DNA of 35,198 nucleotides from Campylobacterales bacterium (lineage in GTDB: Bacteria > Campylobacterota > Campylobacteria > Campylobacterales > Sulfurovaceae): positions 1 through 35,198 of the forward strand of contig JAJRRK010000071.1 of assembly GCA_024279555.1 (NCBI GenBank), written 5' to 3'. The position numbers were made by a program, and so were the translations under genes. Each line of letters starts with the position of its first letter. Position 1 is the stretch's first letter. Below, one piece after another: positions 14,060 to 35,172 of this stretch. A model generated the notes under the pieces. It was not told where the DNA came from. It saw only the letters and a list, made by a program, of their open reading frames with translations, and did no database searches.

Positions 14060-14824
14060 ATGCAGGACCGTTATGTAGCCGATGTCGGTGATTTTGGTAA
14101 ATTTCAGCTCTTTCGCTATCTTTTCCATCATTCACAGAGTCCGCTTGACGGTAAGGGACTTGCACAGATCTGGTTCTTGCATAAAGGGGAGGGGGAGCGT
14201 AACAACGATGGTCGGTACATCGATTACTTCGAGCGTATGAGTGGTACAGATGAGTACCTTGAACACTCACTGATGGATCTACTCATGCGTGGCAGACGTG
14301 AAGTCGAAGAGCTTGAACGTCTCAAGCTACTGCCCAATGCAACATTTTTCTACGATGAAGTGCCAAGACCCTATGAAGACAGGCTGTCATGGTTTGAACG
14401 GGCACTCTGGTTCGCGCACAAAAGCGATGTAGTGGCTGTGGCACCGGACAATGGTATGGCACTGCGCTGCCTCAGAAGTGAAGGGCGTTTTGAAATGCTG
14501 CACGCAGACCGTGACTACCGCCAAAAGGTCTATCCGCAGAAATATATCTTTGCTGATGAAATAGGGCGCTTGTTCAGTCTGCCAACGACTGAAATACTCA
14601 TTGTTTACCAACATCTTGGACGCTGTATGAGCCATGAGCGCCAGACTACAGTACTCAAAGAGCAGCTTTCACAAACCTATCGTCATGTTGCGGCGATCAA
14701 GCATACCCCCTATAGTCCGCGTGTTTTTTTCTTTCTTTGTAAAAGTGAGATCATTCTTGAGAACCTTCAGTACCGTTTGGATCAGTTCACAGAAGAGTAT
14801 GGTACATTTTGGAAATGTTGTTAA
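14060..14824 (+). CDS. conserved hypothetical protein (QDRYVADVGDFGKF N-terminus)
   Basis: 254-aa ORF, RBS-like AGGAGG upstream; N-terminal DRYVADVGDFGKFQLFRYLF resembles a widespread unnamed family. Confidence 0.7.
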   Translation: MQDRYVADVGDFGKFQLFRYLFHHSQSPLDGKGLAQIWFLHKGEGERNNDGRYIDYFERMSGTDEYLEHSLMDLLMRGRREVEELERLKLLPNATFFYDEVPRPYEDRLSWFERALWFAHKSDVVAVAPDNGMALRCLRSEGRFEMLHADRDYRQKVYPQKYIFADEIGRLFSLPTTEILIVYQHLGRCMSHERQTTVLKEQLSQTYRHVAAIKHTPYSPRVFFFLCKSEIILENLQYRLDQFTEEYGTFWKCC

Positions 14825-14883
14825 CATCCAATTAATACAATACCAGTATTATGCATGTACACCAAACATAAAAAAGGAATATA

Positions 14884-15480
14884 ATGATGATCAAAAAAAT
14901 AACACTAGCCTCGGTAGCGGCACTGGCGCTGATGACCGTGTCGGCTCAGGCAGAGATGAAATGCCAGGCAGGAAAATGCGGTGGAGCAATGATGCAAAAG
15001 GGTAAAGCGTCTGCTAATCCTAAAGCGATGAAAATGCGCAAGAAGCGTATGGGGTCGCCATTTCTAATCAAGCATGGTTTGCCACATTATACAAAGATGC
15101 TCATGAAAAGCTGGGACGATCCAAGGCTCAACCTAACTGAAACACAGAAGAACAAGCTTCTGGAAGTACGAAAAGCGACGATGGGCAGTGTTGGGAAACT
15201 CAAGCCTGAAGTCATGACACTACGCAAAGAGATCATTGCCTCCAGCAGAGCGGGTGCCAAGGCAGAGGAACTTAAAGCAAAGGTAGAAAAACTTGCTCAT
15301 CTCGAAGCCGAAGCGACCATGACACACCTCAAGTGTATTGAAGACACCAAAGCGGTATTGAGCAAAGAGCAGATAGCATACCTTATGCAGCAGCAGAAAA
15401 TAAAACATCAGAAGCGTAAAGCCATGATGCAAAAGAAAGGTATGAAGTGTGCAGCCGGTAAATGCGGCGGTGCCAAATAG
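14884..15480 (+). CDS. Spy/CpxP-like (LTxxQ) periplasmic protein with Cys-rich ends
   Basis: Signal peptide ...SAQA; LNLTETQKNKLLEVR and LSKEQIAYLMQQQ; MKCQAGKCGGA near N-term and MKCAAGKCGGAK at C-term. Confidence 0.75.
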   Translation: MMIKKITLASVAALALMTVSAQAEMKCQAGKCGGAMMQKGKASANPKAMKMRKKRMGSPFLIKHGLPHYTKMLMKSWDDPRLNLTETQKNKLLEVRKATMGSVGKLKPEVMTLRKEIIASSRAGAKAEELKAKVEKLAHLEAEATMTHLKCIEDTKAVLSKEQIAYLMQQQKIKHQKRKAMMQKKGMKCAAGKCGGAK

Positions 15481-15570
15481 GGTACTCTTATAGTAGGGTA
15501 CTATACAAAACGGTCTGATGTACCTCTGTGTGCATGTGACCGGCCATCATTCAGGTAGAAGGAGAAACAG

Positions 15571-16014
15571 ATGAACCGACACAATTTTATCGGTGTGACA
15601 CTTTTTGTCTCCATACTGGTATTCAACCCCGCTGTTGCACAGACCACAGAAGAGGCACGTACTCCCTATACGCTCAAACAAACACAGGTACTTTCCGAAC
15701 AGATCGCATCAGCACTGTACGATAAAGGACTTGAAGCCGAGGCCGCACAGAAGATTGCCAAAACATTCACCGCAACCAAAGAGCATGAGTTGGCGCAAAA
15801 GGTTCAGGTTTTTGTAGATCACTGTACAGAGATCACTCATGAACAAGTGCTTGCATATCTGGCAAATGAGGCCTTGCACCGAAACACTGTTTCTCTTGCA
15901 CGTTATGATGAACTGCTTCAGATATACAGTAAGATCACACAGCGTACAGCACCAAAAGATATACAAGCACAACTGCAAAAGATCGCTGCGCTCAACAGTC
16001 AGGCTTTCGGATAG
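15571..16014 (+). CDS. hypothetical exported protein
   Basis: Signal peptide ...FNPAVAQ; RBS AAGGAGA upstream. Confidence 0.65.
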   Translation: MNRHNFIGVTLFVSILVFNPAVAQTTEEARTPYTLKQTQVLSEQIASALYDKGLEAEAAQKIAKTFTATKEHELAQKVQVFVDHCTEITHEQVLAYLANEALHRNTVSLARYDELLQIYSKITQRTAPKDIQAQLQKIAALNSQAFG

Positions 16015-16035
16015 ATCATATCCGAAAGTTTCTCT
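16004..16035 (+). terminator. intrinsic terminator
   Basis: CTTTCGGATA (16004-16013) / TATCCGAAAG (16019-16028), 10-bp perfect stem, 5-nt loop, followed by TTTCTCTT; overlaps the preceding stop codon. Confidence 0.75.
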
Positions 16036-16467
16036 TGTACATGTAAACGTATATGATACTTCTTGTATCAGTAATCCATATTGGTTAACATAATATAAAT
16101 TCTATTAAAAAAGTCTATCCCTTCTCTTACTCCTGCCAGGATCCTACTGTCTACCTGTATTTTTACTTGCAAAATTGCACATACACATCAAGAATGTTTT
16201 CAATCACCCCAAATAGACAAATATGATTTGATTGTTATATGGCAATTATTTTAGTAATGGATTGAACAAGCCTAAAGACAAACTAGTATCGACTTTTTTA
16301 GAACCTTACTCATAATCAATGTAAAACTTAATACTTGTAATATTAATAATATAATCATATTAAAAAAGTATTACGGGTGCCTTTTTTGTAAAGAAGCAAG
16401 AAAATAACAATAGACACTAGATGTTCCTCCACAAGGCACGCAATACAGGGGCTTACAGTGAATTATG

Positions 16468-16481
16468 TTAACAAATGTTCA
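16468..16481. promoter_or_regulatory. degenerate member of TGAACA-N2-TGTTCA operator array
   Basis: TTAACAAATGTTCA, 12/14 match to TGAACAAGTGTTCA. Confidence 0.5.
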
Positions 16482-16510
16482 TTTAATGGTATTTGATTTA
16501 ATGCACTATA

Positions 16511-16524
16511 TGAACAAGTGTTCA
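16511..16524. promoter_or_regulatory. putative TetR operator 1
   Basis: TGAACAAGTGTTCA palindrome (6-bp arms, 2-nt centre). Confidence 0.75.
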
Positions 16525-16552
16525 CAATAAAAATATTCACATTGCTATAAAA

Positions 16553-16566
16553 TGAACACTTGTTCT
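16553..16566. promoter_or_regulatory. putative TetR operator 2
   Basis: TGAACACTTGTTCT. Confidence 0.75.
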
Positions 16567-16586
16567 TAAAAAAAGATTCTCCTCTC

Positions 16587-16615
16587 TTGACTTATGAACA
16601 ATTGTTCACTATAAT
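16587..16615 (+). promoter_or_regulatory. sigma70-type promoter with operator 3 in its spacer
   Basis: TTGACT (16587-16592), 17-nt spacer, TATAAT (16610-16615); perfect palindrome TGAACAATTGTTCA at 16595-16608. Confidence 0.8.
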
Positions 16616-16633
16616 TACACCAAAGGAGCTGCA

Positions 16634-17290
16634 ATGAACGATGAGAGCGTCAATACTCCCCTTTCCAAAGGGAGCAAAACTAAAGCAAAAATACTCAAAC
16701 ATGCCCTGAAACTCTTTTCTACCAAGGGGTACAAGGCAACAACGGTAAGAGACATAGCAGGATCGGTAGGCATTAAACAAAGCGCCCTCTATAACCACTG
16801 TAAGAACAAAGATGAGATACTCGAAACACTTATCAGCGACCTTACCTCCTCTGCAATCGTGACCTTATTTGACAATAAAGATGCCCAAGAGCTCCATAGA
16901 CAGGGGAAATCGCTTTTGATGAGTATTGCCACTACCTTCAAGCTTTTGAGCTTTGACAGGCAGAATGAGGCGCTTTTCAAGCTCTTGATGCAGGAGATCT
17001 TCCGAAATGAGCGCATTCGGGAGATCTATAACGAGCATTTCTATCAGGAGAATGTCAAAAAGCTCTCAGGTCTCTTCTTTCAGATGATGCAGGAGGAGAT
17101 GATCAAGTCATCAGACCCCCTACTGCTGGCAAATGAGTTCTTTTCACCGCTTTTTTTCTACCAAATGCAGGTTTCTTTGCTAAAATTAGACAAAAAATCG
17201 ACCTCTTCTGTGGTAACTCTCTTTGAGAAGCATGTCGACTATTTTTGGGACAACATTAGAGTGGATAGCTCTCCAGATACACTATTTTAG
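16634..17290 (+). CDS. TetR/AcrR-family transcriptional regulator
   Basis: N-terminal HTH: ILKHALKLFSTKGYKATTVRDIAGSVGIKQSALYNHCKNKDEIL; RBS AAAGGAG. Confidence 0.93.
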   Translation: MNDESVNTPLSKGSKTKAKILKHALKLFSTKGYKATTVRDIAGSVGIKQSALYNHCKNKDEILETLISDLTSSAIVTLFDNKDAQELHRQGKSLLMSIATTFKLLSFDRQNEALFKLLMQEIFRNERIREIYNEHFYQENVKKLSGLFFQMMQEEMIKSSDPLLLANEFFSPLFFYQMQVSLLKLDKKSTSSVVTLFEKHVDYFWDNIRVDSSPDTLF

Positions 17291-17343
17291 TAATATAGTA
17301 AAAAATATTAAAACAAATATATAATCAATATTAAGGAATATCA

Positions 17344-17961
17344 ATGCAAAAATACAATGATGATCTCTTTGCCCACAAGTCCAAAAGTTGGGATATGAGC
17401 TCAAGACGGGTCAAAAATGCACAGGCGATCGCTGAACTAATAGTAAAAAATATAAAACTAAATAAAGAGATGGAACTGATGGACTTTGGTGCCGGTACCG
17501 GTCTCTTGAGTTACTTTGTCGCACCATTTGTCAAAAAAATAGTGGCAGTTGACAACTCCCCTTCCATGCTGCGGGAGTTCAAAAACAAATGCAGCGAGTT
17601 TGCCTGTGAAACAGAAGTGTTGGAGCATGATCTCAGCGAGAAAGCACTTGAGCGGGAATTTGACGGCATTATCTCGTCCATGACCATCCACCACATAGAG
17701 GACACAGCTGCCCTCTTTCGCAGATTGTACACTATGCTTAAACCCGGCGGTTTCATCGCCATTGCTGACTTGGACACGGAAGACGGCAGCTTCCACAGTG
17801 ACAATACAGGGGTATTCCATCACGGGTTTGACAGGAAAAGACTTGAAGAGACAGCGAAAGAGGCAGGTTTTGGGAAGATACACTTCGATACTGCTTCGAC
17901 CATTGAAAAACCGCATCGTGACTTCACGGTCTTTCTTATGACGGCGGAGAAAGATAGATGA
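17344..17961 (+). CDS. class I SAM-dependent methyltransferase
   Basis: LMDFGAGTGLLSYF motif I, AVDNSPSML, LKPGGFIAIADL. Confidence 0.88.
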   Translation: MQKYNDDLFAHKSKSWDMSSRRVKNAQAIAELIVKNIKLNKEMELMDFGAGTGLLSYFVAPFVKKIVAVDNSPSMLREFKNKCSEFACETEVLEHDLSEKALEREFDGIISSMTIHHIEDTAALFRRLYTMLKPGGFIAIADLDTEDGSFHSDNTGVFHHGFDRKRLEETAKEAGFGKIHFDTASTIEKPHRDFTVFLMTAEKDR

Positions 17962-18566
17962 TGCGCTATGTATGGCTTGCCCTGTTTGCAGGTACGCTGG
18001 TATGGTCAGGCATTCACCCCAAAGATCAGTTCACCTGGTTCCTTGAAGTCCTTCCCGCCCTGATCGGGTTTGGGTTGATTGTAGCGACCTACCGCACCTT
18101 CCCGCTCACACCCCTGCTCTATACGCTCATATTGATTCATATGATCATCCTGATGGTGGGCGGACACTACACCTATGCGGAGGTTCCTGCCGGTGAGTGG
18201 GTCAAAGAGCTACTGCACCAGAGCCGAAACAACTACGACAAGCTGGGGCACTTTTTTCAAGGGTTCGAACCAGCGATTCTGGCACGAGAGATACTGATAC
18301 GCAAGCAGATCGTCAAACCGAGTCGGATATGGCTGAACTATATTGTGCTGAGCATTGTACTGGCGTTCTCTGCCTTCTATGAACTCATCGAGTGGTGGGT
18401 GGCACTGGCAACGGGTGAAGGTGCGGATGCGTTTCTGGGGACACAGGGGTATGTGTGGGATACGCAGTCAGATATGATGTGGTGCCTTGTCGGAGGCATT
18501 GCTGCCCTGCTTTTGCTGAGCAGATGGCACGACAGACAATTGGAAGAATTAGGAATTAGGAATTAG
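17958..18566 (+). CDS. DUF2238/YjdF-like integral membrane protein
   Basis: Multiple TM segments; LGHFFQGFEPAILAREILIR, FYELIEWWVALATGEGADAFLGTQGYVWDTQSDMM; ATGA overlap with upstream gene. Confidence 0.85.
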   Translation: MMRYVWLALFAGTLVWSGIHPKDQFTWFLEVLPALIGFGLIVATYRTFPLTPLLYTLILIHMIILMVGGHYTYAEVPAGEWVKELLHQSRNNYDKLGHFFQGFEPAILAREILIRKQIVKPSRIWLNYIVLSIVLAFSAFYELIEWWVALATGEGADAFLGTQGYVWDTQSDMMWCLVGGIAALLLLSRWHDRQLEELGIRN

Positions 18567-33917: not shown

Positions 33918-34985
33918 CTACAACGGCTCTCCCCTCAAGACATCCAGCACATTGGTAGCATACGACCCTTTAGGCAGCACGAACGAAAGCTCATAGTGCG
34001 CCCGCTCTTCGATGTACTTCTTTTTGATCTCCGTTACCTGCACCCAGGCGTAGCGTCTGGCGCCAAAGAGTTTCATCTCCTCATCGAACATCTGTTCAAA
34101 ATACCCTGCCAGTCCAGAAGCCCGCTTGGTTTTGCTGCCGGGGATGAGTCCGGTGGGGGCGATGTCTTTGGCGGCAAAGCGTTCGGCTTCTGTTGTCAGA
34201 TCTTCAACTTCAAAGAGTCTGCCATAGGGGTAGTGCATCATCAAATCGCCTTCAAGCAGTTTGTAAAAGCTTGGCTGTTTCTTGACCCCTTTGAGCGAGC
34301 CTTCGGGCAGTCCCATTACCTGCTCAGTCTCTGATTCGGTGAACTTTTCCAGTAGCAGGTTCAGCTCCATGCGTTTTGCCAGCCATTTGTTAAAAAGATA
34401 GCTTTGGTAGGAACCCATCAAAAACTCACGGGTTTTTTTGTCCCGCATCTTCAGTGTGCCCTCAAGCAGTTTTTTACCCTCTTCCCAGTTGTTGCCGTTG
34501 GTGCCGAAACGCTGGTTGCCAAAGTAGTTGGGTACGCCGTTGGCTTTGATCCACTTGAGAACAGAGTCGAGCTTCTCTTTTTGTACGCCAAGTACCTTTT
34601 TGAGGCGTATCTCAAAGCGGTTGCCCTTGAGGTGCCCTACCCGAATTTTGTTGTTGTGGCGGAAGGTGTCGAGTATCTTGATTTTGTCATGGCTGAAGGC
34701 AGAGAGTTTCTCTTCAAGTTTGGCAGGCAGTGAGATGTACTGAATGGTCATGGCATGCTTGTCCTTCAGCCCCGCATAGCCAATATCACGCCGCCTGATG
34801 CCAAGGTGTGTCGAGATGGCATCGAGCATCCCCCATGTGGTCATCTCTTTTTTACGCACCTTCAACACCAGATGCTCCCCCTCCCCCGTAAAGTCATACA
34901 GCGGTATCTCCTCGACAGTAAAATCCCGCGGCGAGGGGTTGAAGACAAATTCATTTTTGATGTTGAGGGGGTAGATGGGCTTCAT
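33918..34985 (-). CDS. truD: tRNA pseudouridine(13) synthase TruD
   Basis: FVVEEIPLY-like FTVEEIPLYDFTGEGEHLVLKVRKKEMTTW, RRRDIGYAGLKDKHAMTIQYISL, GVPNYFGNQRFG; start at MKPIYPL. Confidence 0.93.
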   Translation of the reverse strand: MKPIYPLNIKNEFVFNPSPRDFTVEEIPLYDFTGEGEHLVLKVRKKEMTTWGMLDAISTHLGIRRRDIGYAGLKDKHAMTIQYISLPAKLEEKLSAFSHDKIKILDTFRHNNKIRVGHLKGNRFEIRLKKVLGVQKEKLDSVLKWIKANGVPNYFGNQRFGTNGNNWEEGKKLLEGTLKMRDKKTREFLMGSYQSYLFNKWLAKRMELNLLLEKFTESETEQVMGLPEGSLKGVKKQPSFYKLLEGDLMMHYPYGRLFEVEDLTTEAERFAAKDIAPTGLIPGSKTKRASGLAGYFEQMFDEEMKLFGARRYAWVQVTEIKKKYIEERAHYELSFVLPKGSYATNVLDVLRGEPL

Positions 34986-35172
34986 GGGTACCTTTTTAAG
35001 AGATTGTATTTTATTACCGCACCAACATATAACCTGAAACTTGATGCTGGTGATTTCGTTCATAATCAAGGCAGATTTTTGAAATCCTAGCCGTAGCTAA
35101 GATGAAAAAATCTAACATAGAGTATGGGCGAAAGCACCAGCACCCTTCGGGGAGAACGATAAGAGGCGACCT

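Follow-up and report, generated by a model that had tools for sequence, protein, structure and literature searches.

The window, by which we mean the whole 35,198-nucleotide stretch analysed here, carries a gene for a TetR-family regulator that is preceded by a promoter, four palindromes and a candidate dif site, and followed by genes for a methyltransferase and a membrane protein. The features are as follows:

16083..16110, minus strand: XerCD-type dif candidate TTTTAATAGAATTTATATTATGTTAACC, with an exact 20-bp core and conserved XerC and XerD arms
16468..16481, no strand: putative operator 1, TTAACAAATGTTCA (read from the sequence; kept in orthologs)
16511..16524, no strand: putative operator 2, TGAACAAGTGTTCA (read from the sequence; kept in orthologs)
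16553..16566, no strand: putative operator 3, TGAACACTTGTTCT (read from the sequence; kept in orthologs)
16587..16592, plus strand: -35 hexamer TTGACT (read from the sequence; conserved in Sulfurovum loci)
16595..16608, no strand: putative operator 4, TGAACAATTGTTCA, a perfect palindrome within the promoter spacer (read from the sequence; kept in orthologs)
16610..16615, plus strand: -10 hexamer TATAAT (read from the sequence; conserved in Sulfurovum loci)
16634..17290, plus strand: TetR-family regulator, 218 aa (Pfam TetR_N, 2.7e-13; AlphaFold2 model)
17344..17961, plus strand: class I SAM-dependent methyltransferase, the next gene (Pfam; neighbour scan)
17958..18566, plus strand: DUF2238 membrane protein, often the third gene in Sulfurovum (Pfam, 2.8e-59; neighbour scan)

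The four putative operators are 14-bp palindromes with spacings of 43, 42 and 42 bp, and the spacer between TTGACT and TATAAT is 17 bp long, of which operator 4 occupies 14. The palindromes and their spacing were found at the coordinates that an earlier, sequence-only reading of this DNA had claimed, as was the last palindrome within the promoter spacer ahead of the tetR-family gene. The motif AAAGGAG is located upstream of the tetR start codon (ATG, 16634). A genome scan revealed only two copies of the perfect TGAACANNTGTTCA in the 1.82-Mb genome; since both fall within this array, it is not a product of chance. Chance palindromes were ruled out by this scarcity, together with the site pairs observed in relatives and the spacing statistics given below. 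An Rfam scan of positions 14800–18000 gave no match. A weakly conserved element, roughly ACG..ATAGGGGCTT, occurs at ~16430–16462, i.e., ~20–35 bp upstream of operator 1, and at the same place in Sulfurovum loci. Elsewhere in the window, an operator-like site with one mismatch (CGAACATCTGTTCA, 34085–34098) lies within truD (33918–35069, minus strand), probably by chance.

The regulator possesses the TetR_N DNA-binding domain (Pfam PF00440, 49.9 bits against a cut-off of 24). The AlphaFold2 model of the 218-aa protein (mean pLDDT 84.5) displays an all-helical TetR-like fold, and the all-helical C-terminal domain of this fold is present according to the model and to Foldseek matches to TetR structures; the structure search with the model returned nothing beyond the generic TetR fold. 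By sequence, the protein belongs neither to the SlmA family (NCBIfam, 29.5 bits for a cut-off of 120) nor to the RefZ family (NCBIfam, 54.4 bits for a cut-off of 180), although the latter was the best score among families. By analogy, it may work in a manner similar to these two proteins even if it is a member of neither family by sequence.

About two dozen genomes of the same genus encode orthologs of this TetR protein with 79–88% identity, and other families of the order have more distant ones (42–51%). We gathered 180 loci, 142 of them distinct, including those of Sulfurovum and of relatives such as Nitratifractor. When sites were counted, with the site rule used, in the 138 distinct loci having at least 190 bp of upstream sequence, exactly four were found in 110 loci, three in 15, two in 7 and none in 6. 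The 367 spacings of ≤50 bp between neighbouring sites fell at 22 bp (11), 31–34 bp (128) and 41–43 bp (228), with none between, which corresponds to 2, 3 and 4 helical turns; the best-fitting repeat was 10.6 bp over the range tried (9.5–12 bp). Mixed arrays also exist (42-34-42, 43-33-43, 43-31-32 and 33-31-22). Because the loci are related, these raw counts are not independent and changes on the tree are a fairer measure. On the tree of 142 proteins, the spacing pattern changed at least 10 times, in every case by whole turns, and the same holds when changes are counted by interval (8, 7 and 3). Moreover, in the 31 loci with an exact 42-42-42 spacing, conservation reached 1.82 bits at the operators and 1.83 bits at the promoter hexamers, for 0.54 bits at the other, AT-rich positions. 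The earlier claim that all sites face the same side of the helix is thus well supported, as the spacing is kept, the linkers are not, and the changes between lineages are whole turns. The geometry of autorepression that it had proposed gains similar weight from the comparison. The array was found to be present and phased in orthologous loci, so that one of the two outcomes named in the earlier reading as refuting it did not occur. Nature itself provides a clean experiment on helical phasing in this series of 2-, 3- or 4-turn spacings, sometimes mixed in one array.

Site pairs 14–34 bp apart were observed in 27 of 60 related genomes, for a reversed control pattern that gave zero in all 60. The listed pairs sit at this tetR, and no pairs occur in genomes that lack a close homolog of the gene, which ties the array to the protein, an association short of proof of binding. 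In a Nitratifractor locus (L140), four sites with an altered core, TGAACAAAAGTTCA, are found 36–135 bp upstream of tetR with spacings of 33, 21 and 32, which are again whole turns, and seem to have changed together. At two further homologs (L133 and L028), dif lies ~100 bp upstream of tetR and the operator array is absent.

The dif candidate, dif being the site at which joined copies of the chromosome are resolved, is located 357 bp upstream of the array. Its 20-bp core is exact and is the sole match in the window at ≤4 mismatches; the site is identical to B. subtilis dif at 21 of 28 positions and to E. coli dif at 18 of 28. Carnoy and Roten predicted dif for S. denitrificans, Sulfurovum NBC37-1 and Nitratiruptor SB155-2 (PMC2731167), and our candidate is near-identical to the predictions for the first two. 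Using the coordinates from that work, the distance from predicted dif to the array is ~0.9 kb in S. denitrificans (G370), ~0.6 kb in Sulfurovum NBC37-1 (G024) and ~0.06 kb in Nitratiruptor SB155-2 (G088).

Across 92 homologous loci, a dif site of one of two unrelated types, XerCD or XerH according to family, lies 43–1849 bp from the array. The XerCD type, with ≤2 mismatches to one core, was found in 82 loci, 43–1849 bp (median 440) away from the first operator, and in the same orientation in 80 of them. The XerH type was found in 10 loci of families f18 (presumably Nitratiruptor-like) and f4, at 46–97 bp, and xerH is nearby in all of the nine f18 and f4 genomes checked. An XerH-type dif was also considered for Sulfurovum and for family f16 (presumably Sulfurimonas-like), where none lies close by and the XerCD type is present instead. 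Among the array loci whose upstream sequence covers 900 bp or more, 13 gave no dif at ≤2 mismatches; some of these have a match at 3–4 mismatches. The variation in the distance between dif and array (from tens of base pairs to almost 2 kb) speaks against the idea that array and Xer complex keep a fixed geometry. In f16, a conserved element upstream of the array was at first taken for dif; judged by eye, it is a putative divergent RNase P RNA gene. In many f16 loci this gene separates the array from dif, at ~45–150 bp upstream of operator 1 in L160–L203.

The locus is positioned opposite dnaA in 27 of 27 tested genomes (0.453–0.496 of the circle from dnaA), all chosen for carrying the locus on a chromosome-scale contig, with several lengths rounded and six records starting away from dnaA. 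One genome with two contigs and a broken tetR frame (G251) was left out of this test. In the closed, whole genome G296, the array at 974 kb lies 12 kb from the peak of the cumulative GC skew (986 kb), and the best dif match adjoins the array near this peak; the window's own genome is in 178 contigs. As an informal control, other tyrosine recombinase matches in these genomes were scattered from ~17 to 94% of the contig. This constant dif and terminus neighbourhood was missed by the sequence-only reading, which is partly supported overall.

In Sulfurovaceae, the methyltransferase gene follows tetR in most loci, often together with DUF2238, as indicated by the neighbour scan, and the methyltransferase is a partner of tetR only in Sulfurovaceae. 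In representative loci of families f16, f18, f4 and f9, tetR stands alone, next to convergently oriented genes that differ from case to case and whose identities were judged by eye. Thus, the downstream genes vary between families and dif remains. As the constant companion across families is dif and not a target gene, we lean towards a function at the terminus. On the TetR tree each family is monophyletic, and the tree follows the families with the fewest possible changes, which fits descent and not transfer.

Single sites scattered over the chromosome were also observed, with 11–16 in each of eight f16 genomes and in G302, mostly on the origin side. The 83 stronger sites are distributed from origin to terminus as 35, 21, 9, 15 and 3 per bin (KS p 2.7e-6). 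This pooled value is optimistic, as it ignores kinship, depends on a split into stronger and weaker sites made afterwards, and comes from nine genomes picked after the counts had been seen, G302 because its sites looked striking. All 118 scattered sites together gave p 1.8e-7. Nearly all examined scattered sites fall inside reading frames, which is weak evidence alone as most sequence in any bacterial genome is coding. In G296, the pattern occurs 16 times including the array, for 5.4 expected (a modest enrichment), and among 63 comparable palindromes its 12 scattered sites take first place for proximity to the origin. In Sulfurovum, no scattered sites were found beyond control level, and most f18 genomes, like those of f4, show the pattern weakly or not at all. 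Since Sulfurovum is without the pattern, action through scattered sites cannot be the general function. A promoter regulon elsewhere in the genome was likewise rejected, given that Sulfurovum has no repeated perfect sites and that the scattered sites of its relatives are mostly intragenic. One 14-mer, TGAACAGTTGTTAA, is found in what is apparently the same gene, 29–48 kb from dnaA, in three f16 genomes (L226, L229 and L248).

We propose that the four palindromes are the operators of the adjacent TetR-family protein, of which four dimers would bind one face of the DNA and probably touch each other. The whole-turn spacing points to contacts between dimers on one face, or to a common partner surface. 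A dimer on operator 4, between the -35 and -10 hexamers, would shut the promoter and the protein would thereby cap its own amount; as operator 4 overlaps the promoter, autorepression is likely. Array and gene together would form an old chromosome-terminus module that several families of the order have kept next to dif. The most probable explanation for this placement would be that the four-dimer complex, beyond its operator role, serves as a landmark of the dif region, with a part in organising the terminus, in segregation or in the timing of division. The sites, the spacing rule, the overlap with the promoter, the conservation, the linkage to dif and the position at the terminus were observed directly; we infer binding by this protein, cooperativity, repression and the terminus function from sequence comparison. 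Weighing against the proposal are the array loci in which no dif was detected, the two homologs with dif and no array, the variable distance and the generic fold of the protein. We put the whole, namely a cooperative autorepressor array and conserved terminus module whose complex acts as a dif-region landmark, at about even chances.

Extended to the Campylobacterota, the proposal would be that four TetR dimers beside dif, with either Xer system, link the terminus to segregation or division, some lineages also reading origin-side sites; in this broader form it is a tentative but substantial possibility. The main and serious rival to a terminus function is inherited gene order, which is able to persist without function. 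The protein would then be a common type of autorepressor, which may respond to a ligand and whose four phased sites make cooperative repression steep, the nearness of dif being a functionless inheritance, and in Sulfurovum the methyltransferase and DUF2238 genes would be repressed along with tetR. Such a regulator, which we consider possible if somewhat doubtful, would account for the promoter spacer filled by operator 4, for the methyltransferase gene behind tetR in most Sulfurovaceae loci and for the lack of scattered sites above control level in Sulfurovum; moreover, the fold resembles that of ligand-binding TetR regulators, and the monophyly of the families on the TetR tree is expected from simple descent. 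It does not readily explain why, in the other families, the representative tetR is solitary with differing neighbours, yet array and dif of either type remain together.

The origin-side single sites of eight f16 genomes and G302, as well as the first rank of the G296 core for origin nearness, would suit a SlmA- or RefZ-like nucleoid factor working through scattered sites, with the array for autoregulation and the terminus position timing expression to the end of replication; SlmA and RefZ are indeed TetR proteins with origin-enriched sites (PMC3573117, PMC6657595). We regard this as unlikely, given that the pattern is missing in the genus to which the window belongs, Sulfurovum, that it is faint or lacking in f4 and most f18 genomes, that the genomes were selected after the counts had been seen, that the G296 enrichment is modest and that the sequence falls in neither family. 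Far less probable still is a mobile element that entered at dif through Xer recombination and carries the locus as cargo. Mobility genes adjoin about one in four proteobacterial dif sites (PMC2731167), but no second dif (≤2 mismatches) turned up in any of the 26 loci that span 9 kb or more, and the TetR tree follows the families with minimum changes.

Ties between terminus and division are known for few bacteria (MatP, ZapT), and in a limited search of open papers we found no link from terminus to division for Campylobacterota. A phased four-site array with its TetR gene beside dif, across two dif/Xer systems, is a candidate for such a role. As is proposed for the locus described here, the MatP-matS and ZapT systems involve a sequence-specific protein at the terminus (PMC7188993). 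However, they belong to other protein families (ZapT is annotated as MerR) and use many sites over hundreds of kb, in contrast to the one compact array here.

Epsilonproteobacteria have dif/Xer and difH/XerH systems, and the dif sites here match those predicted for three genomes; the paper behind these predictions mentions neither an operator array nor a TetR gene (the term TetR has 0 occurrences; PMC2731167). Autorepressed TetR regulators of the AcrR/TtgR/IcaR type share with our protein the TetR N-terminal domain and a palindromic operator over their own promoter. Most such regulators use one or two sites. Unlike the AcrR/TtgR/IcaR type, the present locus has four sites, a strict whole-turn spacing, conservation across families and a link to dif. 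RefZ of Bacillus subtilis is also a TetR-family protein with palindromic motifs (RBMs) at conserved chromosomal positions (PMC6657595), but there five single RBMs lie near the origin, whereas here a phased array lies at dif and Sulfurovum has no scattered sites. Similarly, SlmA of E. coli belongs to the TetR family, and the scattered sites of f16 are reminiscent of its SBS sites, which lie on the origin side and avoid the terminus (PMC3573117), whereas the conserved feature of the locus described here is located at the terminus.
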